Source of the DNA: Polaribacter pectinis
GTDB taxonomy: Bacteria; Bacteroidota; Bacteroidia; Flavobacteriales; Flavobacteriaceae
Direction: 5' to 3'
Length of the DNA stretch: 64,000 nucleotides
Assembly (NCBI RefSeq): GCF_014352875.1
Contig: NZ_CP060695.1
Coordinates: forward strand, 1,829,501-1,893,500
Positions 45,896 to 56,617 of the stretch are shown piece after piece; the stretch's first letter is position 1, and each line of letters begins with the position of its first letter. The position numbers were made by a program, and so were the translations under genes. The notes beneath the pieces were generated by a model that searched no databases, was not told the DNA's origin, and saw only the letters and a list, made by a program, of their open reading frames with translations.

Positions 45896-47242
45896 ATGAA
45901 GATTATTATAGCTGGTGCTGGAGACGTTGGTTTTCACTTGGCTAAACTACTTTCTTACGAATCTCAAGATACGTATATAATAGATTTTGATGGTGAAAAG
46001 TTAAATTACATTAACAATCATTTAGATGTTATTACTAAAAAAGGTGATGCAACTTCTATAAAACTATTAAAAGAAATTGGAATTGATAAAGCAGATTTAT
46101 TAATTGCTGTTACAGATAGCCAAAACACAAACTTTACAATTTCTGTAATTGGTAAGTCTTTAGGAGCCAAAAAAACCATTGCAAGAATAGACAACCCAGA
46201 GTTTTTAGAAAACTGTGAAGTAGATTTTACACAATTTGGTTTAGACTTTATGATTTCTCCGCAAGAATTAGCTGCCAACGAAATTAAAATGCTCCTAAAT
46301 CAATCTTCTTTTAATGATACTGTAGAGTTTGAAAGTGGTCTTTTTAATGTTATGGGTACTGCATTAACCTACAAATCTCCATTAATAGATTTAACAGTTA
46401 AAGAAGCCAAAGAGAAATTTTCTAGTGTAGATTTTATTACCATTGCTATTAAAAGAGAAAATGTTTCTCAAACCATTATACCACGTGGAGACACTGTATA
46501 CCAATTAGACGACCAAGTGTATTTTTCTGTACCAAACTACAGCATGAAAGGCTTGTACCCTATTATTGGTAAAAAACAGTTCGAGATTAAAAATGTAATA
46601 ATTTTAGGAGGAAGTAGTGTTGGCGAAAAAACTGCAAGAAAACTTTGTAAGGAAAATTTTAATGTAAAGTTAATAGAGAAAAACAGAGAAAAGGCAGAGT
46701 TATTAGCAGAAGAATTAAGCCATACATTAGTTATTAATGGTGATGGTAGAGATTTAGAGTTGTTAGAAGAAGAAAACATTAGAGAAACAGATGCTTTTAT
46801 TGCTGTTACTGGTAATTCTGAAACCAACATTATGTCTTGTTTAGTAGCAAAATCTAAAGGGGTTAAAAAAACAATTGCTTTGGTAGAAAATATGGATTAT
46901 ATAGATATTTCTCAAACCATAGGAATACAATCTCTAATTAATAAAAAACTAATTGCTGCTAGTAATATTTTTAGACATATTAGAAAAGGAGAAATACTTG
47001 CCTTGGCAAACCTACATAATATAGATGCAGAAGTTTTTGAGTTTGAAGTGCGAGCAAATGCCAAAGTAACCCAAGAACCAATTAAAGATTTACGTTTTCC
47101 TAGAGAAGCCGTTTTTGGTGGAATTATTAGAGATGGTAAAGCGTTAATGTCTTTTGGAAACATGCAAATACAAGCAGGAGATAAAGTAATTGTATTCTGT
47201 TTACCAGAAGCAATTAGTACTGTAGAAAGTCTTTTTAACTAA
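45896..47242 (+). CDS. trkA: Trk potassium uptake regulatory subunit TrkA
   Basis: Cytoplasmic NAD-binding regulator of the Trk channel, 448 residues with two RCK repeats. Each has a Rossmann motif: IIIAGAGDVGFHLAKLL (about 3-19) and VIILGGSSVGEKTARKL (about 230-246). Each is followed by a TrkA-C domain (LRFPREAVFGGIIRDGKALM near 400). One base separates it from trkH, so the pair is an operon. It gates the channel in response to nucleotide binding, by family knowledge. Confidence 0.94.
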   Translation: MKIIIAGAGDVGFHLAKLLSYESQDTYIIDFDGEKLNYINNHLDVITKKGDATSIKLLKEIGIDKADLLIAVTDSQNTNFTISVIGKSLGAKKTIARIDNPEFLENCEVDFTQFGLDFMISPQELAANEIKMLLNQSSFNDTVEFESGLFNVMGTALTYKSPLIDLTVKEAKEKFSSVDFITIAIKRENVSQTIIPRGDTVYQLDDQVYFSVPNYSMKGLYPIIGKKQFEIKNVIILGGSSVGEKTARKLCKENFNVKLIEKNREKAELLAEELSHTLVINGDGRDLELLEEENIRETDAFIAVTGNSETNIMSCLVAKSKGVKKTIALVENMDYIDISQTIGIQSLINKKLIAASNIFRHIRKGEILALANLHNIDAEVFEFEVRANAKVTQEPIKDLRFPREAVFGGIIRDGKALMSFGNMQIQAGDKVIVFCLPEAISTVESLFN

Positions 47243-47243
47243 C

Positions 47244-48743
47244 ATGGGTTCTTTAAACACAAAAATAATTTATCGCTTTTTAGGAATTACAGCCGCCTTA
47301 AACGGTTTGTTTATGTTTATAGCATTTCCTTTTAGTGTGTTTAATGATGAAGAGGCAAAATGGGGGATTTTAAATGCAGGAATCATTACTGTTTTTATAG
47401 GCCTACTCCTCTACTTCTTTAACAAACCAGACAGCACCAATATTCAAAAAAAAGAAGGATACTTAATTGTAACATTAGGTTGGTTAACACTTTCCATTAC
47501 AGGAATGTTACCTTATTTATTATCTGGTGCAATACCTAGTGTAACAGATGCTTTTTTTGAAACCATTTCTGGATATTCTACCACAGGTTCTTCTATTTTA
47601 ACAGATATAGAAGCAATGCCCAAAGGAATTCTTTTTTGGAGAAGTGCCACACATTGGATTGGCGGAATGGGAATTATTGTACTTACCATAGCAATTCTTC
47701 CGCTTTTAGGAATTGGAGGTATGCAACTGTTTATGGCAGAAGCTCCTGGCCCATCTGCAGACAAATTACACCCAAGAATTACCGATACTGCAAAACGCCT
47801 ATATTTAATATATGTAACATTAACTTTTGCACAATTTTTTCTTTTAAAAATTGCTGGTATGACTTGGTTCGACGCCATAAACCATGCCATGGCAACCGTT
47901 AGTACTGGTGGTTTTTCTACCAAAGCAGACAGTGTTGCTTTTTATAATGGGCAACCATTAATACAATACATAATTATTGCTTTTATGTTTATTGCAGGTA
48001 CCAACTTTGTATTGACCTATTTTGCTTTAAAAGGAAAAGTTAGAAAAGTTTTTGAAAGTGAAGAGTTTAAATACTATTTCTTTGGTATTGTAACCGTAAC
48101 TGCCATTATTTCTGTAATTATTATCTTTTTTCAAGACCCCAATTTAGAAACAATTTTGGCGCATCCAGAAGTTTTAGGTAAAACAGAAAGTGCCTTTAGA
48201 CATGCCTTATTTATGGTAACTTCTGTAGTTACAACAACAGGTTTTGTTACTGCAGACTTTACCATGTGGAATTTCTTTGCAACGGGTATTTTCTTTGCCC
48301 TATTTTTTACAGGTGGTTCTGCAGGTTCTACAAGTGGTGGTGTAAAAGTAGTGAGACATATTGTAATGCTTAAAAACAGTTTTTTAGAATTTAAAAAAGC
48401 CTTACACCCCAATGCAATTATACCTGTAAGATATGATGGTAAAACCGTAAGTCAAACCATTGTTTTTAATATTCTTTCGTTCTTTATTATTTACATGCTA
48501 ATTTTTATCATTGCCTCTGTAATACTTACCTTGTTTGGGTTAGACTTTATGTCAGCATTAGGCGCAGCTGCCTCATCTTTGGGTAATATTGGCCCAGCAA
48601 TTGGTAGTGTTAGTCCTATAGATAATTTTTCTCATTTATCTATTGCAGCAAAATGGTTCTGCTCATTTTTAATGTTAATAGGGCGTTTAGAACTCTTTAC
48701 AGTACTTATTTTATTTACGCCTTTCTTTTGGCGCAAGAACTAG
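47244..48743 (+). CDS. trkH: Trk potassium uptake channel subunit TrkH
   Basis: Membrane subunit of the Trk potassium importer, 499 residues with about ten to twelve helices. The selectivity-filter-like loops are visible as SGYSTTGSSI, ATVSTGGFSTK, TSVVTTTGFVTADF and SSLGNIGPAIG, four P-loop segments with the expected central Gly. It follows trkA by one base. A 530-base non-coding region lies downstream. Confidence 0.94.
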   Translation: MGSLNTKIIYRFLGITAALNGLFMFIAFPFSVFNDEEAKWGILNAGIITVFIGLLLYFFNKPDSTNIQKKEGYLIVTLGWLTLSITGMLPYLLSGAIPSVTDAFFETISGYSTTGSSILTDIEAMPKGILFWRSATHWIGGMGIIVLTIAILPLLGIGGMQLFMAEAPGPSADKLHPRITDTAKRLYLIYVTLTFAQFFLLKIAGMTWFDAINHAMATVSTGGFSTKADSVAFYNGQPLIQYIIIAFMFIAGTNFVLTYFALKGKVRKVFESEEFKYYFFGIVTVTAIISVIIIFFQDPNLETILAHPEVLGKTESAFRHALFMVTSVVTTTGFVTADFTMWNFFATGIFFALFFTGGSAGSTSGGVKVVRHIVMLKNSFLEFKKALHPNAIIPVRYDGKTVSQTIVFNILSFFIIYMLIFIIASVILTLFGLDFMSALGAAASSLGNIGPAIGSVSPIDNFSHLSIAAKWFCSFLMLIGRLELFTVLILFTPFFWRKN

Positions 48744-49273: not shown

Positions 49274-52200
49274 ATGAAACAAAACAACTTTCTAAAGATT
49301 CTTTTCAGTTTTTTTCTGATTACAAGTTCTTTATTTATGAATGCACAAACAACAATTTATTCTGAAAATTTCACAGGACAGAATGACAAAGGAGCAGTTG
49401 GCCCAGCACCAACAACAGATCTAGTTGGTGTAGATTGGACAATTGATGTGTCCTCTGCAGCATTAACAGCTAGTACGGATTGGTTTAAAGTTACATCAGA
49501 AGTTTTTGAAGCTAGAGATATAGATGGTGACGCAATTTGGATGTCTCCCTCAATTAATATTACTGGATTTACTGGGGTTTCTTTTAGCTTATCTGCTGCG
49601 GAATCCGGAACTATGGAAGCAGCTGATATCTTCAATACAGAATACAGGATCGATGGAGGTGCTTGGACTGCTGCAGATACAAATGGTACCTTAAATGATG
49701 ACTTTACAAGTGCTACTGTTTCTCAAGCAGGTTTAGCTGGTTCTACTTTAGAAATAAGAGTAACTATGAACAATAATTCAGGTACAGAACTTCAAAGATT
49801 AGATGATGTTTTAGTACAAGGTACAGCGTCAACTGCACCAACAGTTGGTTTTGACAATGCAGCAAGTAACCAAACTGAAACTAACGCATCTTTTAATGTA
49901 AGTATTCCAGTAACAGTTTCCAATTATGATGGAAATCAAATAGATGTAAGCATCGCTTCATCTGGTACTGCAGAACCTGCAGATTTCACTTTAAATACTG
50001 CAACACTTTCTTTTACAGCAGATGGTTCTCAAAATATTTCTTTAGACATCAATCCAGATACAGATGATTTTGATGATGAAACCATTATTTTAACTTTAAC
50101 AGAAACAAGTGCTGTTACAGGTTTAATTGTTTCACAAGCAACACATACTGTTACAGTAACTGAAGATGAAACAGCACCAAGTATTGGTTTTGATGCTGCT
50201 ACAAGTTCGGAAAACGAAACAGATGCCACTTTTACAAGTGCAAACATTCCTATTACTGTTTCTAATTATTCTGGAACACAAATAGATATTGATGTAACTG
50301 CAACTGTTGGAACTGCAGAAGCTGGAGATTTTACGTTTACATCTCCAACAGCATTGTCTTTTACAGCAGATGGTACACAAAATATTACTTTCTCTATCAA
50401 CGATGATGCAGATACAGACCCAGAAACTATCATTTTTACAATTACTGAAACAAGTGCTGTTAGTGGTTTAATTATTTCTCAAGCAACACATACAGTTACT
50501 ATTATTGATGATGAAATACCTCCTCTACCAATAGCTGGAAAGGTTTTTATTACAGAAATTGTTGATGCTGCAAGTACAGCGTTTGAATATTTAGAATTAT
50601 TTAATAATTCTTCTGAGGCTGTAAGTCTTTACTCAAGTAAATTAGTAAGAGCAGATGCTACTACCAATGCTTCTCAATATGTTTTTGACTTTGGAGTAGA
50701 TGAACAAACAGCAGATACAGATCTAATTATACCTGCATATGGTTTTTTAATTGTAGCAAGAGGTGGTACTAGATCTGGTTTTAACTCTGACTTTGGAATT
50801 ACATTAGATGCATCTGTTAATTATAATGGAGGACATTCTAGTAATTTTTTTGGTACAGGTAGAAGATGGAGATTAATGACTGGCGGAACTGCAAATACGG
50901 ACGACGGAACCTTAATTGACGACACATTAATAGGGTTAGGTACTGAACAAGATTACAAAAATATTTTCACAAATTCCTATGTTGTAGAAGGTGATGTTGC
51001 AAATGCAACTCCAGGAGCATTAGAATACTTAATCTACTCTGGTGGAGCTTGGGTAAACTCTGTAGCTTTAGACGGCACAACAACCGCTAAAGACGCTTAT
51101 ATTTACGACGATTTAGTAATTTCTGCAAATACAGAAGCAAACGATATTGGTATTGCAGACACAAAAGGAATTGATGTAAGTGCAGGTAATTCTCTTACCA
51201 TAAATGGTAATTTAACTTTAGCAGGTTCAGATTCTTATTTACAAGGAAACGGAACAGTACCTTCTGCAGGTGTTGTTAATAGTGCATCTGTAATATTAAA
51301 AGGAACTTATACTTCTGGTGGAACAAATCAGTTTTTCTACTTTACAGAAACATACCATAACAATACAACTGGCTTAACAGATGGTTGGAGTTTAATTTCA
51401 TCACCAACAGTTGGAGAGAAAATAGATGGTAACACTGGAGATGGTAATTTTACTGTTTTTAACGGACTTCAAGAAAAAGATTCTCAATATGGTATTGCTG
51501 TTTATGACAATACACAATCTGATACTGATTTACGTTGGGATTATTTTTCTACTGCGGAAGTAAATGTTGCTACAGCATCTGCTACAATAGATATGGCAAG
51601 TGGTAAAGGATATTCTGTTTTACCAAGTGCAACACCTACTGCAGACCAACAAAAAGGAAATTTAGGTTTTAAAGGTTCTATTGCTACTATAGATGTAGGT
51701 TCTGAAATTAAAGACAGTTCTCCTGCCAATGGTGGTGTAGGAAATGCTTTTAATGCCATAGGAAATCCTTACCCAGCTTTTTTACCTTTTAACACTACTG
51801 CAGATGCTACAGACAATCTGTTAACTGTAAACACAGGTGTTTTAGATGAAGAAACATTATGGATTTGGGACAAAGCAACTACTTCTTACTTAACAGTAAA
51901 TCAAACAACAACTGTTGGAACAGACAAAAACAATAATGAAAGAACTTCTTTATTTATTGCGCCTGCTCAAGGATTTTTTGTAAAAGCAAAAAGTATGATG
52001 GCTCCAAGTGACTTTAACTTTACAAAAGCCATGCAAAAGCATCAAGCAACTGGTATTTTTAATAGAACTGAAAACACAAGACCAGAAATTAAATTATCAT
52101 TATCAAAAACAGGTGTTACTAAAAACGCATTTGTTTATTACTATGATGGTAAAACAACTGGTTTCGATAATGGTTATGATAGCTCTGCATTTGCAGGTTT

Positions 52201-52765
52201 AGGAACTTCTTTTGGTGTACATACACAATTAGTAACTGCTAATGAAGGTAAAAAATTAGCAATACAAACATTACCAAAAGACAACTATGAGGCTATGGTT
52301 ATTCCTGTAGGAGTTCATGCTGCTGCTAATGAAGAAATTACTTTTTCTGCCAATGTTTTAAATTTACCATCTAATATTAAGGTGTATTTAGAAGATAGAG
52401 AGTTAGGTACATTTACAAGATTAGATGCTGCAAATAGTACTTATAAAGTAACTTTAACTGCAAACTTAAGTGATATTGGTAGATTCTATTTACATACTAC
52501 AGAAAGCACATTAAGTGTTAAAGATGTAGTTTTAAATACTGTTAGTATCTTTAAAACAGCTGCTTCTACTATAAGAATGACAGGCTTACCACAGGGTAAA
52601 ACTACTTTCTCTTTATATTCAATGCTTGGTAAACAAGTTTACACTTCTTCTTTTGAAACAAACGGAGTTAAAGATGCTACTTTACCAAAACTTGGTACAG
52701 GCGTTTATTTTGTAAAAGTACAAACTGAAACAGGTAAAGTTAGCAAGAAAATAATTTTAGAATAA
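49274..52765 (+). CDS. T9SS-secreted lamin-tail/Calx-beta protein
   Basis: Cell-surface or secreted protein of 1163 residues. Order: signal peptide (1-25), jelly-roll-like N-terminal domain (about 27-184, ending LQRLDDVLVQG), two Calx-beta-like repeats (about 188-297 and 302-412, both with VSNYxGxQID and a FTADGxQNI strand), a lamin-tail-like domain (about 420-560, KVFITEIVDAASTAFEYLEL), a long region of about 500 residues with repeated beta structure, and a T9SS type A sorting domain at about 1090-1163 (GLPQGKTTFSLYSMLGKQVY, ending VSKKIILE). No catalytic motif was recognised. A 55-codon peptide gene starts 23 bases downstream with no terminator between. Confidence 0.8.
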   Translation: MKQNNFLKILFSFFLITSSLFMNAQTTIYSENFTGQNDKGAVGPAPTTDLVGVDWTIDVSSAALTASTDWFKVTSEVFEARDIDGDAIWMSPSINITGFTGVSFSLSAAESGTMEAADIFNTEYRIDGGAWTAADTNGTLNDDFTSATVSQAGLAGSTLEIRVTMNNNSGTELQRLDDVLVQGTASTAPTVGFDNAASNQTETNASFNVSIPVTVSNYDGNQIDVSIASSGTAEPADFTLNTATLSFTADGSQNISLDINPDTDDFDDETIILTLTETSAVTGLIVSQATHTVTVTEDETAPSIGFDAATSSENETDATFTSANIPITVSNYSGTQIDIDVTATVGTAEAGDFTFTSPTALSFTADGTQNITFSINDDADTDPETIIFTITETSAVSGLIISQATHTVTIIDDEIPPLPIAGKVFITEIVDAASTAFEYLELFNNSSEAVSLYSSKLVRADATTNASQYVFDFGVDEQTADTDLIIPAYGFLIVARGGTRSGFNSDFGITLDASVNYNGGHSSNFFGTGRRWRLMTGGTANTDDGTLIDDTLIGLGTEQDYKNIFTNSYVVEGDVANATPGALEYLIYSGGAWVNSVALDGTTTAKDAYIYDDLVISANTEANDIGIADTKGIDVSAGNSLTINGNLTLAGSDSYLQGNGTVPSAGVVNSASVILKGTYTSGGTNQFFYFTETYHNNTTGLTDGWSLISSPTVGEKIDGNTGDGNFTVFNGLQEKDSQYGIAVYDNTQSDTDLRWDYFSTAEVNVATASATIDMASGKGYSVLPSATPTADQQKGNLGFKGSIATIDVGSEIKDSSPANGGVGNAFNAIGNPYPAFLPFNTTADATDNLLTVNTGVLDEETLWIWDKATTSYLTVNQTTTVGTDKNNNERTSLFIAPAQGFFVKAKSMMAPSDFNFTKAMQKHQATGIFNRTENTRPEIKLSLSKTGVTKNAFVYYYDGKTTGFDNGYDSSAFAGLGTSFGVHTQLVTANEGKKLAIQTLPKDNYEAMVIPVGVHAAANEEITFSANVLNLPSNIKVYLEDRELGTFTRLDAANSTYKVTLTANLSDIGRFYLHTTESTLSVKDVVLNTVSIFKTAASTIRMTGLPQGKTTFSLYSMLGKQVYTSSFETNGVKDATLPKLGTGVYFVKVQTETGKVSKKIILE

Positions 52766-52788: not shown

Positions 52789-52956
52789 ATGACAAAACAG
52801 ACAGACAATAACCAAGAAATTTCTCGTAAAGATGCCCTTAAAAAAATTGGGAGTTACGGTAAATACGCAGCATTAACTGCGTTGGGAACTTATATGATAT
52901 TAAATCCACAGAAAGCACAAGCTGCTTCTCCTGAAGATCCAGGAACAGGATTTTAA
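52789..52956 (+). CDS. 55-residue peptide, candidate precursor of a modified exported peptide
   Basis: Short gene from ATG 52789 to TAA 52954-52956. The peptide has a hydrophilic leader (MTKQTDNNQEISRKDALKKI), a hydrophobic stretch (about 26-38, YAALTALGTYMIL), and a C-terminus reading AQAASPEDPGTGF. SRKDALKKIG resembles a twin-arginine signal with Lys in place of the second Arg, and AQA at 43-45 resembles a signal peptidase site, which would release a ten-residue product. Ser47 and Thr53 are the only hydroxyl residues in that product. It is 23 bases after the T9SS gene and 86 bases before a PqqD-kinase gene. The precursor role is inferred from this layout. Confidence 0.7.
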   Translation: MTKQTDNNQEISRKDALKKIGSYGKYAALTALGTYMILNPQKAQAASPEDPGTGF

Positions 52957-52980
52957 AACCTATATTTTTATTTATAAAAA

Positions 52981-53009
52981 TGCTTCGATTTTTCGGAGCA
53001 TTTTTTTTT
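52981..53009 (+). terminator. Intrinsic terminator between peptide and kinase genes
   Basis: Stem TGCTTCG (52981-52987) / CGGAGCA (52994-53000) with one wobble pair, a 6-base loop and nine Ts. It is 24 bases after the peptide stop. The T-run and the next bases also form TTTG (53007-53010), an 18-base spacer and TACTTTTA (53029-53036), a near-consensus promoter ending just before the kinase ATG. Confidence 0.8.
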
Positions 53010-53042
53010 GTAAACATCATAAATTGACTACTTTTATTTTTT

Positions 53043-54179
53043 ATGGAAAGAGCGTCAAAATTTTTATATAAAGTTGTAGAAGACAAAACAATTACTTGGT
53101 TTAAAAACAGTAACGAGTATTTGGTTTTAGAAAATACCACTGCAGATATTTTAAAAAGATTAAATAAAGGAATTTCTGTGACAGAAATTGCGACTGCGTT
53201 GTCTAAAAAATTAGCTGTACCATTAGAAAAAACAATCGATTTTATTCTAGATCTAGAAAAAAGAGTTTTCAACCCCAAAACAACAGTAGAAACAGAAATT
53301 GTAAACGATTATAGAGATATAAAAAAGCCTAAAGAATTTGAGTATACAAAGTTCTATAAGATAAATAGTATTGTTATTAAAGTAAACTTTTCAGATGAGT
53401 TTGAACTTTCTTTAGTACACCCAAAGTTTTCTCATTTAGAAATTGAATCGACAGATTATACCCATGAATTTATAGTTTTTAACAACAATGGTTTTATCTT
53501 TTTATATGTAAACAAAGAATTTATTGGTGCTTGGAGTAAAAAAGAGATTCATTATTTTCAAGGAAAATTTTCGATGCAGTTTATTCAGAAAATTCACCAA
53601 AAAGAAGAAAAAGAATGGATGGGAGTTTTTCATGCTTCTGCTGTAAGTAATGGCGAAAAAGCAATGCTCTTTTTAGGCGATTCTGGAAACGGAAAAAGTA
53701 CTTCTTTAGCACTTTTACAAGCAAATGGTTTTACTTGCTTGGCAGATGATTTTGTCCCTGTAGATATAGAAAAACAAGACGTCTATAGTTTTCCTGCTGC
53801 TATTTCTATTAAAAAAAATAGTTTAGAAACCTTGCTACCACTCTACCCAGAATTGGAAACTTCTGCAGAATATCATTTTAAAAGATTGAATAAAATTGTT
53901 AGATTCTTACAACCAAACAACTCTAATTTCTTTGCTCATTTGCCTTGTAAAGGTTTGGTTTTTATTAAATATGAAAAAGATGCTGCATTAGTTTGTAGTA
54001 AAATTTCAAAAATTGAAGCTTTTCAGCAATTGGTACCAGATTCTTGGTTGTCTCCAGAAATAGAAAATGCACAAGTATTTTTAGATTGGTTCGCGCGTTT
54101 AGATTGCTATCAATTAACCTATTCAAATAACAAAGAAATGATACAAACTGTTTCTAATATTTTTAACAATGAATTATAA
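53043..54179 (+). CDS. PqqD-like / HPr-kinase-like fusion protein
   Basis: Protein of 378 residues. The N-terminal about 80 residues resemble a PqqD/RiPP-recognition domain (FKNSNEYLVLENTTADILKR). The C-terminal part is an HprK-like P-loop domain: HAS at 197-199, Walker A LGDSGNGKST (211-220) and the acidic LADDFVPV (233-240). HprK-like proteins of lasso-peptide clusters phosphorylate the peptide, and PqqD domains bind leader peptides, so peptide phosphorylation is a reasonable guess. It starts just after a terminator that follows the peptide gene and overlaps the nucleotidyltransferase gene by 11 bases. Confidence 0.85.
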   Translation: MERASKFLYKVVEDKTITWFKNSNEYLVLENTTADILKRLNKGISVTEIATALSKKLAVPLEKTIDFILDLEKRVFNPKTTVETEIVNDYRDIKKPKEFEYTKFYKINSIVIKVNFSDEFELSLVHPKFSHLEIESTDYTHEFIVFNNNGFIFLYVNKEFIGAWSKKEIHYFQGKFSMQFIQKIHQKEEKEWMGVFHASAVSNGEKAMLFLGDSGNGKSTSLALLQANGFTCLADDFVPVDIEKQDVYSFPAAISIKKNSLETLLPLYPELETSAEYHFKRLNKIVRFLQPNNSNFFAHLPCKGLVFIKYEKDAALVCSKISKIEAFQQLVPDSWLSPEIENAQVFLDWFARLDCYQLTYSNNKEMIQTVSNIFNNEL

Positions 54180-55281
54180 GGAAACCCTTTTTTTTGTTGC
54201 AAAATGTTTGACCATTTCTCTAGAAGAAGAGCATAAAAAGGAAATAGAAGAACAACTAAAAACTAATAAAATTGATTGGGATTCTGTAGTAAAAGTTAGT
54301 ACTGCACATTATGTTTTTCCTGCTTTGTATTGTAATTTAAAAAGAGTTGGTTTTCTACATTACTTGCCTATAGAATTGGTGGAGTACATGAAACATATAA
54401 CAGATTTAAATCGTGACAGAAACGAACAAATAATAGCCCAAGCTAAGGAAATTAACACTCTTTTATTGGACAATAATATAACTCCAATTTTCTTAAAAGG
54501 AACAGGTAATTTACTAGAAGGTTTGTATGAGGATGTTGCAGAAAGAATGGTTGGTGATATCGATTTTATTTTTTCTAAAGAAGAGTACCCAAAAGCAATT
54601 AAAATACTTACAAAAAACAAGTATTCCAAAGTTCATGACATAACTTATGATTTACCTATGTTTAAACATTATCCTAGGTTGCAGAAAGAGCATAGAATTG
54701 CTGCTGTAGAAATACATAAAGAAATGCTGTTAGAAAAATATGCAGATGAATTTAATTATTCTGTTATAAGAGAAACTGCATTAAAAATAGACAATATAAC
54801 AGTAATGAGTTATAGCAATCAACTATGTTTGTCTATTATAGCTAAACAAGTTAATGATAACGGAATTCATTTTAAAAACATTGCTTTAAGAAACGCTTAT
54901 GATGTTTTTCTTTTATCTAAAAAAACAACGGCAAAAAATGCGTTTGATAATTACAAAAAACTATACAATCCATTAAATTGCTTTTTAGCAACTTGTTACG
55001 AAACTTTTGGAAAATCAGCTTCACTTACCTATAAAGAAACACCAGAAACAAAAGCGTATTTGACAACTTTTTATAGCTATTTAACTAACGAATCATTAAG
55101 AAAAAAAGACCATAGAAAAACAGAAAGAAACCTATTTATTAAATCTAGACTTGGAGTTCTTTATCAATCTATAGTTAAAAAAGAACATAGAAATTGGTTG
55201 CTAAAAAGAATAACAGATAAAAAATGGCAGCAAGAAAAATTAATACAACTTGGTTTAAAAAAGTCTAAACCAAATTCTTAA
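54169..55281 (+). CDS. Nucleotidyltransferase-family protein (NTP_transf_5-like)
   Basis: Protein of 370 residues with a pol-beta-type nucleotidyltransferase core: FLKGTGNLLEGLY (about 108-120) and the catalytic acidic pair in ERMVGDIDFIFSKEE (Asp130, Asp132), then VEIHKEM near 182. This matches the NTP_transf_5 group, often found next to HprK-like kinases in peptide-modification clusters. The C-terminal half is helical and basic. It overlaps the kinase gene by 11 bases, so the two are translationally coupled. The substrate is unknown; the 55-residue peptide is the obvious candidate. Its end overlaps the convergent mpl gene by 17 bases. Confidence 0.8.
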   Translation: MNYKETLFFVAKCLTISLEEEHKKEIEEQLKTNKIDWDSVVKVSTAHYVFPALYCNLKRVGFLHYLPIELVEYMKHITDLNRDRNEQIIAQAKEINTLLLDNNITPIFLKGTGNLLEGLYEDVAERMVGDIDFIFSKEEYPKAIKILTKNKYSKVHDITYDLPMFKHYPRLQKEHRIAAVEIHKEMLLEKYADEFNYSVIRETALKIDNITVMSYSNQLCLSIIAKQVNDNGIHFKNIALRNAYDVFLLSKKTTAKNAFDNYKKLYNPLNCFLATCYETFGKSASLTYKETPETKAYLTTFYSYLTNESLRKKDHRKTERNLFIKSRLGVLYQSIVKKEHRNWLLKRITDKKWQQEKLIQLGLKKSKPNS

Positions 55282-56617
55282 CCTCATCAAAATCTAAACC
55301 TCCATAATTACCAGAACTCATTAATAAAACTGCCTTATTATCTAAATCTTGGTTGAATAAAAAGTCTTTAAATTCTTGCGGATTTGTATAAATAATTAAA
55401 TCTTCTCTATCAAAAGCTTCTCCAATTTGTTCGGCAGAAACCTCTTCTAATTGTTTAATTTTTACTGCATGTGGCGAATAAAAAACTACTGCTTTGTCTG
55501 CAAACTCCAACGCTCCTTTATATTCTGCTAAAAACTCTGCATTTAGACTAGAATAGGTATGTAATTCTAAACATGCCAAAACAGTTCTATCTTTATACTG
55601 ATTTTTAACTGCTTTTGTAGTGGCAGCAACTTTAGATGGCGAATGTGCAAAGTCTTTAAAAACAACTGTTTTATTACTTTCTGCAATCTTCTCTAAACGC
55701 TTACTTGCTCCTTTAAAACTTACAATCGCTTCATAAAAATCGTCTTCATCTATCCCTAAATGCTGGCAAATCCATTTTGCTCCTGCTAAATTCTGTAAAT
55801 TATGTTTTCCAAAAATCTCTAGTGGTAAATTTCCTTCTGCAGTATCTAAATAGGTAATTCCGTTTTCTATAAAATGTTCTGGAGTTTGGTACGCGTATTT
55901 TTTAATATGATTGGTTGAAGTTTCTACAACATCTTTTACAATTTCATCTTCTATATTGTAAACCATGCTTCCACCATTTACCATAGAATCTGTAAATATT
56001 CTAAACTGCTCTACATAGTTCTCGAACGTTGGAAAAACATTTATATGATCCCAAGCAATACCACTTAACAACGCAATATTTGGTTTGTATAAATGAAATT
56101 TAGGACGCATATCTATTGGCGAACTCAAATATTCATCACCTTCTAAAACAATAAAATCGTTTTCTTCTGTTAAATGCACCATGGTTTCAAAACCTTCTAA
56201 TTGTGCACCAACCATATAATCTACTTCTTTTTCATGATAATTTAACACATGTAAAATCATAGAAGTTATTGTAGTTTTTCCATGAGAACCACCAATTACT
56301 ACTCTTGTTTTATTTTTAGATTGTTCATATAAAAATTCTGGATAGGAATATATTTTTAAGCCTAATTCTTGCGCTTTTAACAATTCTACATTGTCTTTTT
56401 TAGCATGCATTCCTAAAATAATAACATCTAATTCAGACGATATTTTTTCTGGAAACCAACCAAATTCTTCTGGCAATAAACCATATTTTTCTAATCGAGA
56501 TTTAGATGGATCATGAATTGTATCATCACTTCCAGAAACTTGGTATCCTTTTTGGTGTAAAGCTATTGCAAGATTGTGCATTGCGCTTCCGCCAATGGCT
56601 ATAAAATGAATTTTCAT
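55265..56617 (-). CDS. mpl: UDP-N-acetylmuramate:tripeptide ligase
   Basis: Mur-ligase family enzyme of 450 residues that joins recycled L-Ala-gamma-D-Glu-meso-DAP to UDP-MurNAc in peptidoglycan recycling. MKIHFIAIGGSAMHNLAIAL at the start, the ATP-binding loop VIGGSHGKTTITSM (about 108-121), GDEYLSSPIDMRPKF and KDFAHSPSKVAATTKAV are typical of Mpl and differ from MurC. It is monocistronic and converges with the nucleotidyltransferase gene. Confidence 0.9.
   Translation of the reverse strand: MKIHFIAIGGSAMHNLAIALHQKGYQVSGSDDTIHDPSKSRLEKYGLLPEEFGWFPEKISSELDVIILGMHAKKDNVELLKAQELGLKIYSYPEFLYEQSKNKTRVVIGGSHGKTTITSMILHVLNYHEKEVDYMVGAQLEGFETMVHLTEENDFIVLEGDEYLSSPIDMRPKFHLYKPNIALLSGIAWDHINVFPTFENYVEQFRIFTDSMVNGGSMVYNIEDEIVKDVVETSTNHIKKYAYQTPEHFIENGITYLDTAEGNLPLEIFGKHNLQNLAGAKWICQHLGIDEDDFYEAIVSFKGASKRLEKIAESNKTVVFKDFAHSPSKVAATTKAVKNQYKDRTVLACLELHTYSSLNAEFLAEYKGALEFADKAVVFYSPHAVKIKQLEEVSAEQIGEAFDREDLIIYTNPQEFKDFLFNQDLDNKAVLLMSSGNYGGLDFDEVKNLV

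Follow-up and report, generated by a model that had tools for sequence, protein, structure and literature searches.

A short-peptide gene family that co-occurs with an HprK-related kinase, a nucleotidyltransferase-fold protein and a class of type IX secretion cargo in Flavobacteriaceae

The locus and its peptide gene family

The window analysed here is a 64,000-nucleotide stretch of the genome of Polaribacter pectinis (contig NZ_CP060695.1, positions 1,829,501 to 1,893,500; the genome is one contig of 3.47 Mb), and our subject is a run of four plus-strand genes within it: a large cargo gene of the type IX secretion system (T9SS; 49274..52765, 1163 residues), a precursor-like peptide gene 23 bp behind it (52789..52956, 55 residues), a gene in which a PqqD-like domain is fused to an HprK-related kinase (53043..54179, 378 residues), and a gene for a protein of the NTP_transf_5 nucleotidyltransferase fold (54169..55281, 370 residues). 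The original prediction, made from the letters of the window, had read the last three as a stand-alone cassette that phosphorylates or nucleotidylates a peptide; the three open reading frames are confirmed, as is the 11-base overlap of kinase and transferase genes. We find that the peptide, the kinase and the C-terminal module of the cargo mark the same genomes across the family, and we propose, with moderate confidence, that the four parts form a surface-protein system of Flavobacteriaceae, in which peptide, kinase and transferase yield an exported peptide that serves the module-bearing T9SS cargo.

The window peptide ends AQAASPEDPGTGF and divides into a leader at residues 11-45 (ISRKDALKKIGSYGKYAALTALGTYMILNPQKAQA) and a tail at residues 46-55 (ASPEDPGTGF). 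Its relatives number 124 distinct copies in the DNA that was fetched, which is a subset, 154 having been counted in 36 same-genus genomes alone. Over 117 aligned rows (7 long or truncated copies being omitted) and 2,993 pairs that are not independent of one another, the pooled ratio of non-synonymous to synonymous differences (pN/pS) is 0.25, and because of this value a chance reading frame is rejected: the 55-residue frame is a gene family under selection. Constraint is concentrated in the leader, with a pN/pS of 0.13 against 0.83 for residues 2-10 and 0.36 for the tail, and five positions (R13, A16, L38, P40 and S47) are invariant in all 117 rows. The two points on which the original prediction had staked itself, conservation of the peptide beside the kinase and a pattern of substitution expected of a translated frame, thus both came out in its favor.

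Within the leader, a hydrophobic stretch of about 13 residues is followed by A-x-A, whose small residues are A or S/T in almost every row; the invariant proline precedes it, and the +1 position that follows is free. We take this region to be a signal peptidase-like site, and its sequence makes a short exported peptide the probable product. The leader is also reminiscent of a twin-arginine translocation (Tat) signal, but the position after R13 is lysine in 113 of the 117 rows and asparagine in the other 4, and the lack of RR throughout rules out a strict Tat substrate; TatC is present in all 24 of the positive genomes described below, and its presence does not discriminate. Serine occupies +2 after A-x-A in every one of the 121 copies (of 124) that could be parsed by pattern, and by eye two of the remaining three have TS at the place of the serine and one is truncated. 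It is the sole S, T or Y of the tail in 27 of the 121, and in the window peptide it is Ser47, the predicted acceptor of phosphorylation. Tails are exactly 10 residues long in 72 of the 121 copies and nearly identical inside one genome. At five loci (L and G numbers are our handles for loci and genomes), namely L027, L137, L069, L073 and the second copy of L087, they run instead to 37-55 residues, with PGKP repeats in L069.

Cargo pairing and distribution across genomes

The window cargo scores 38.7 bits against TIGR04183 (cut-off 23) and also matches PF18962, which places it among T9SS type A proteins; a match to LTD lies below its cut-off. Its C-terminal module (51977..52762, plus strand) consists of a RemA/RemZ-like penultimate domain and the C-terminal sorting domain (CTD), the latter without the xPNP motif, and module alignments and co-occurrence indicate that this subfamily tracks the system. 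The genome holds 61 T9SS sorting-domain matches (60 above cut-off), and all seven of its peptide copies lie directly behind such a gene, at gaps of -8 to 28 nt, and all seven CTDs so paired exceed the TIGR04183 cut-off. Among the fetched copies, 119 of the 124 could be evaluated, two being at contig ends (L132, L144) and three (L164 and two copies of L155) having masked upstream sequence, and 115 of these stand behind a T9SS type A gene, a few of them at 200-500 nt. An upstream frame was found for 117 of the 119, giving 116 distinct ends, as two copies share one L027 cargo; 114 of the ends match TIGR04183 (E<=0.01), and the non-matching ones are, by eye, those of L065 and L147. Across 100 Polaribacter-type copies, the median distance from the preceding gene to the peptide is 24 nt.

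Upstream frames of 250 residues or more number 117 (six of which seeded the profile), and 114 of them have a common domain just before the CTD; the exceptions are a gene that intervenes at L065 and two pieces of masked sequence. For the unpaired CTD proteins of the window genome, 20 were chosen from the 54 unpaired matches and three without a parsed frame were dropped; the domain is present in 2 of the 17 that remained. The xPNP motif is present in 0 of 113 paired CTDs vs. 9 of the 17 unpaired ones. A profile built on the cargo end matches RemZ at E 1.6e-20 and RemA at E 1.2e-19, and the eight partner cargos that were scanned carry, as other domains, Calx-beta, LTD, Ig-like or carbohydrate-binding domains, or none above cut-off.

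The distribution of the parts was followed in 249 Flavobacteriaceae genomes from 202 genera (at least 90% completeness requested). The peptide profile matches 28 of them at E<=0.01, with 24 at <=1.7e-15 and four at >=7.4e-4; the kinase matches 25 at E<=0.001, with 24 at <=1.1e-37 and a partial match in G179; and the cargo module matches 25 at E<=1e-25, of which 24 are shared with peptide and kinase and the other is G163. Peptide, kinase and cargo module therefore mark the same 24 of 249 genomes (Fisher p 1.5e-32 for either pair, kinship ignored), and the expectation that a leader-type peptide tracks a PqqD-HprK kinase with an NTP_transf_5 enzyme is borne out. The three family positives that contributed rows to the peptide profile (A1) are G000, which is the window genome, G019 and G282. 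With less strict thresholds, negative genomes, too, give matches to the module superfamily (best 4.8e-18 in G063 and 3.0e-15 in G167). Presence can differ inside a genus: in g45, G276 has peptide, kinase and module and G083 has none of them.

In 325 genomes sampled across the phylum, strong peptide and full-length kinase matches fall in the same five genomes, and a wider occurrence in Bacteroidota was not seen in this sample beyond those five; the kinase profile (A2) matches 182 of the 325 at E<=0.001, all but five at >=4.9e-17, and among the matches listed the weak ones mostly cover the P-loop only. Among 36 genomes of the window's own genus, several of them incomplete, 29 have both peptide and kinase, two the kinase only (G018, G031), two the peptide only (G009, G011) and three neither. 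G018 has kept its kinase (contig C19, 26455-27576) alongside a degraded transferase and gives no peptide or cargo-module match, and G009 (C1:108182-109196) has kept its peptides alongside a degraded transferase and gives no kinase match, so that the parts seem to decay jointly. We also looked for a dedicated second PorU-type sortase, and none tracks the system in 10 positive vs. 10 negative genomes; all 10 positives have the PorU-type Peptidase_C25, as do 6 of the 10 negatives, G018 being counted as a negative.

This distribution, together with the pairing of seven of seven and 115 of 119 copies with cargo genes, rules out the stand-alone cassette of the original prediction: the peptide belongs with T9SS cargo genes, in dispersed copies. 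The window genome has seven such copies to one kinase gene and one NTP_transf_5 gene, and the number per genome ranges from 1 to 17. Of the 22 positive genomes that belong to other genera than the window's, 17 give a single peptide match, and 14 have a peptide gene at a distance of 0-23 nt in front of the kinase gene. Eight one-peptide genomes hold several cargos: nine in G191, six in G100, three each in G066, G118, G140 and G282, and two each in G266 and G288. In the window's genus the numbers of peptides and cargos are closer (17 and 15 in G014, 11 and 11 in G025, 7 and 9 in G000). Because one peptide can accompany up to nine cargos, the peptide is able to act in trans and has no specificity for a particular cargo, and we infer that it behaves as a shared tag whose supply scales with that of the cargo.

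The enzymes, their neighbors and known relatives

The window kinase contains a P-loop (LGDSGNGKST) of the GxxxxGKS form, a DD pair and an upstream histidine, the motifs of HPr kinases. H197, the P-loop and D235-D236 are invariant in 22 relatives, and P-loop and DD align with those of the solved HprK structures 1ko7, 2qmh, 1jb1 and 3tqf, the histidine with that of two of the four. HprK-type kinases phosphorylate serine. Against NCBIfam HprK_rel_A (TIGR04352) the window protein scores 62.5 bits, below the cut-off of 200, and 22 of 22 relatives match this family at E<=0.001 (best 1.4e-23); PqqD (PF05402) is matched at E<=1 by 8 of 21 relatives, with a best E of 0.0016. An AlphaFold model built from 21 sequences (mean predicted local distance difference test score, pLDDT, 89.8; predicted template modelling score, pTM, 0.84) places b-b-b-a-a-a at residues 7-76, then a mixed domain, then the kinase, and we take the three strands and three helices to be the PqqD/RRE topology. 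The PqqD-HprK identity that had been proposed for this protein thus finds support in the HprK motifs and in the modelled fold, whereas both of its sequence scores are below the cut-offs. Kinase genes usually occur once per genome; G022 has two (C1:1093234 and C1:2283771, 62% and 54% identical to that of the window), which is unique among the 59 relatives searched.

For the transferase the proposed identity is plain: the window protein scores 125.7 bits against PF14907 (cut-off 31.2, E 3e-36), with GDIDF at its DxD motif, and 16 of 16 relatives match the same family. The pattern K-G...R...DID is invariant among them, corresponding to D130-I131-D132 at its end in the window protein. The transferase gene adjoins the kinase gene in 22 of 22 positive loci outside the genus, behind it in 21 and in front of it in one. 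In L034, L037 and L041 the stretch behind the kinase gave no transferase frame of at least 250 residues; that the transferase might be optional was considered for L034 and rejected, an intact copy being present elsewhere in G004, which we take to be the genome of that locus.

Between the peptide and kinase genes of the window lies an intrinsic-terminator-like hairpin (52976..53005, plus strand; 13 pairs followed by a T run), a match that is weak by itself, the scan having given 4 such sites vs. 3.0 expected. The locus is flanked by TrkA and TrkH genes (45896-48743) and a Mur-ligase gene (55265-56617), and in L033, L036, L038 and L042 a TrkH-like gene stands directly before the kinase, with no peptide or cargo in between. 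As the original prediction had noted for the cyclase, neither a lasso cyclase nor a B2 protease was recognised among the scanned neighbors in the window (TrkA, TrkH, T9SS cargo and Mur ligase), to which that search was limited, or by eye downstream in 22 positive relatives; nor was a peptide exporter or leader protease recognised among six scanned window proteins or, by eye, at the other loci. In 10 of 22 loci outside the genus (L086, L087, L094, L104, L106, L107, L108, L109, L110 and L115) the kinase-transferase pair is followed by a gene of about 190 codons whose product looks by eye like an outer-membrane barrel. Of three such proteins scanned, that of L115 is above the OMP_b-brl cut-off, that of L104 is below it and that of L109 has no match; the protein could be a fifth component of the system.

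Each enzyme family is already known, and the novelty lies in the combination, of which no description was found in the open-licence literature. We take TIGR04352 to belong to an 'HPr-rel-A' cassette whose other members are a PqqD protein and a nucleotidyltransferase; the window kinase differs in falling short of the curated cut-off of that family and in having its PqqD-like domain fused. We know of no peptide family or T9SS link for that cassette, and no paper using the names HPr-rel-A or HprK-related kinase A was found in the open-licence literature. The tailoring of lasso peptides (PadeK, PsmK/PsmN) likewise pairs a kinase with an annotated nucleotidyltransferase, presumably of the same HprK-type and NTP_transf_5 families as here. 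Unlike lasso systems, this locus has no cyclase or B2 protease recognised beside it, and its tails are mostly 10 residues; the serine stands just behind the leader and not at the C-terminus; and the PqqD-like domain is fused to the kinase, the substrates being dispersed beside T9SS cargo genes. In pseudomycoidin, PsmK phosphorylates the C-terminal serine and PsmN adds one or two hexoses, possibly with a nucleotide first (PMC9266682).

On the secretion side, the C-terminus of type A cargo in P. gingivalis and T. forsythia is amide-bonded to a linking sugar that bears serine or glycine; the cargo has the same type A CTD, but the available parts of that account include no gene-encoded peptide or kinase (PMC7468200), and the peptide-paired CTDs found here differ from oral type A cargo in having no xPNP. 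RemA is a gliding adhesin and the CTD of its homologue RemZ has been seen bound in the T9SS translocon (PMC10994853), and the RemA CTD permits both anchoring and release (PMC12618676). RemA and RemZ of F. johnsoniae have a homologous C-terminal module, yet their module is a distant relative of the subfamily that tracks the system. Exosortase/PEP-CTERM and rhombosortase systems likewise serve dispersed cargos with a common C-terminal module from one processing locus per genome (PMC7468200); here a peptide and a kinase take the place of such a sortase, and no second PorU-type peptidase, the one type that was searched for, tracks the system.

A proposed mechanism and its alternatives

The system would combine leader-guided tailoring with dispersed-cargo sorting. 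A short peptide gene would supply a conserved signal-peptide-like leader and a tail most often of 10 residues; the PqqD/RRE-like domain of the kinase would probably bind the leader, its HprK-type core would probably phosphorylate the invariant serine just behind it, and the NTP_transf_5 enzyme would probably add a hexose or a nucleotide to the serine phosphate. That the kinase acts before the transferase is proposed because of the analogy with PsmK and PsmN in pseudomycoidin, and by the same analogy a phosphorylation-type modification is our best guess. The peptide would then be exported and cleaved after A-x-A, leaving an N-terminal x-S(P-R)-P-E-x-P-G-x-G-F, and this product of about 10 residues may help to mature or anchor one class of T9SS type A cargo, or contribute to its function; the cargos of this class are large and modular, with a RemA/RemZ-like module and a CTD without xPNP at their ends.

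How the peptide might serve its cargo can be pictured more specifically, if speculatively. Since the type A cargo of the two oral species is amide-bonded to a sugar bearing serine or glycine, a peptide that offers both a free amine and a phospho-sugar would make an attractive acceptor, and the T9SS sortase might join the cargo C-terminus to the free N-terminus of the phospho-glycosylated peptide in place of the amino-acid-bearing linking sugar. We think this quite unlikely to be the exact arrangement; if true, a cytoplasmic kinase and transferase would prepare a gene-encoded link that holds cargo to a surface glycan.

Several other readings start from the same genes. The peptide might never be cleaved and might remain in the membrane by its leader as an adaptor or pilot that the two enzymes switch on or off. 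The entire leader is constrained, with its pN/pS of 0.13, beyond what charge and hydrophobicity would ask for, the Polaribacter-type copies mostly lie close behind a cargo gene (median 24 nt), and an A-x-A that follows some 13 hydrophobic residues is no proof of cleavage; but the small A-x-A residues, the invariant proline and the free +1 position resemble a signal peptidase site, and a single copy can accompany as many as nine cargos, so that we regard an adaptor as unlikely, with a modest chance of being right. A released RiPP-like (ribosomally synthesised and post-translationally modified peptide) signal or bacteriocin, for which the cargo neighbor merely provides co-expression, would account for the conserved leader, the RRE-type domain, the tailoring-type enzymes and the short core. 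That reading is improbable in our estimation: neither an exporter for the peptide nor a protease for its leader could be recognised among the neighbors scanned or viewed by eye, near-identical tails in up to 17 copies favor a common tag over diversity of product, and the specific cargo module co-occurs also where the cargo and peptide genes lie apart.

The enzymes might also act on the cargo or on some other protein, the peptide doing no more than regulate them, since the module co-occurs with the enzymes as tightly as the peptide does. Serine and threonine are, however, absent from the listed invariant and nearly invariant positions of the cargo module, the peptide has one invariant serine, and an RRE-type domain suggests a leader-bearing substrate; we hold this very improbable. 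Even within the four-part system proposed here, it could be export or cleavage, and not phosphorylation, that keeps the serine invariant.

A number of observations weigh against the four-part system. Four evaluable copies have no CTD gene just upstream (L065, L071, the second copy of L087, and L147; no upstream frame was found for L071 or the L087 copy), and three cargos of the window genome with a strong module (G000, C1, near 599974, 1317018 and 1953976) have no peptide match behind them; L246 and L239 cover the latter two sites. The original prediction had asked whether homologues of the peptide always precede PqqD-HprK genes, and they do not: only 44 of 124 peptide copies lie just before a kinase gene, and many are far from it; terminator-like hairpins follow 23 of these 44, standing between peptide and kinase in 18 of 24 cases in the window's group (with differing stems) vs. 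5 of 20 in other genera. As to the kinase, the window protein scores 15.9 bits against PF05402, below the cut-off of 23.4, so that its N-terminus is weakly RRE-like by sequence and its identity leans on the predicted fold, and the kinase match of G095 is divided between two frames.

The statistics of co-occurrence call for similar caution. The Fisher test ignores phylogeny; the cargo-module profile (A5) was built from paired cargos, with 15 of the 24 positive genomes giving rows, although the nine positives independent of those rows still match at <=3.3e-50; within the genus the association of peptide and kinase is looser (p 0.013); and part of the co-absence reflects the lack of a PorU-type peptidase, seen in 4 of the 10 negatives tested.

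The linking sugars that we know of for type A T9SS cargo come from two oral species (PMC7468200), and in flavobacteria the RemA CTD serves anchoring and release alike (PMC12618676). If the proposal is true, it would be the first case known to us in which RiPP-type chemistry is joined to protein secretion, the T9SS field would gain a marker for a class of cargo, and enzymes of the HprK and NTP_transf_5 families would gain a role outside lasso peptides. The findings suggest a previously unrecognised route by which some marine flavobacteria finish or attach their surface proteins.

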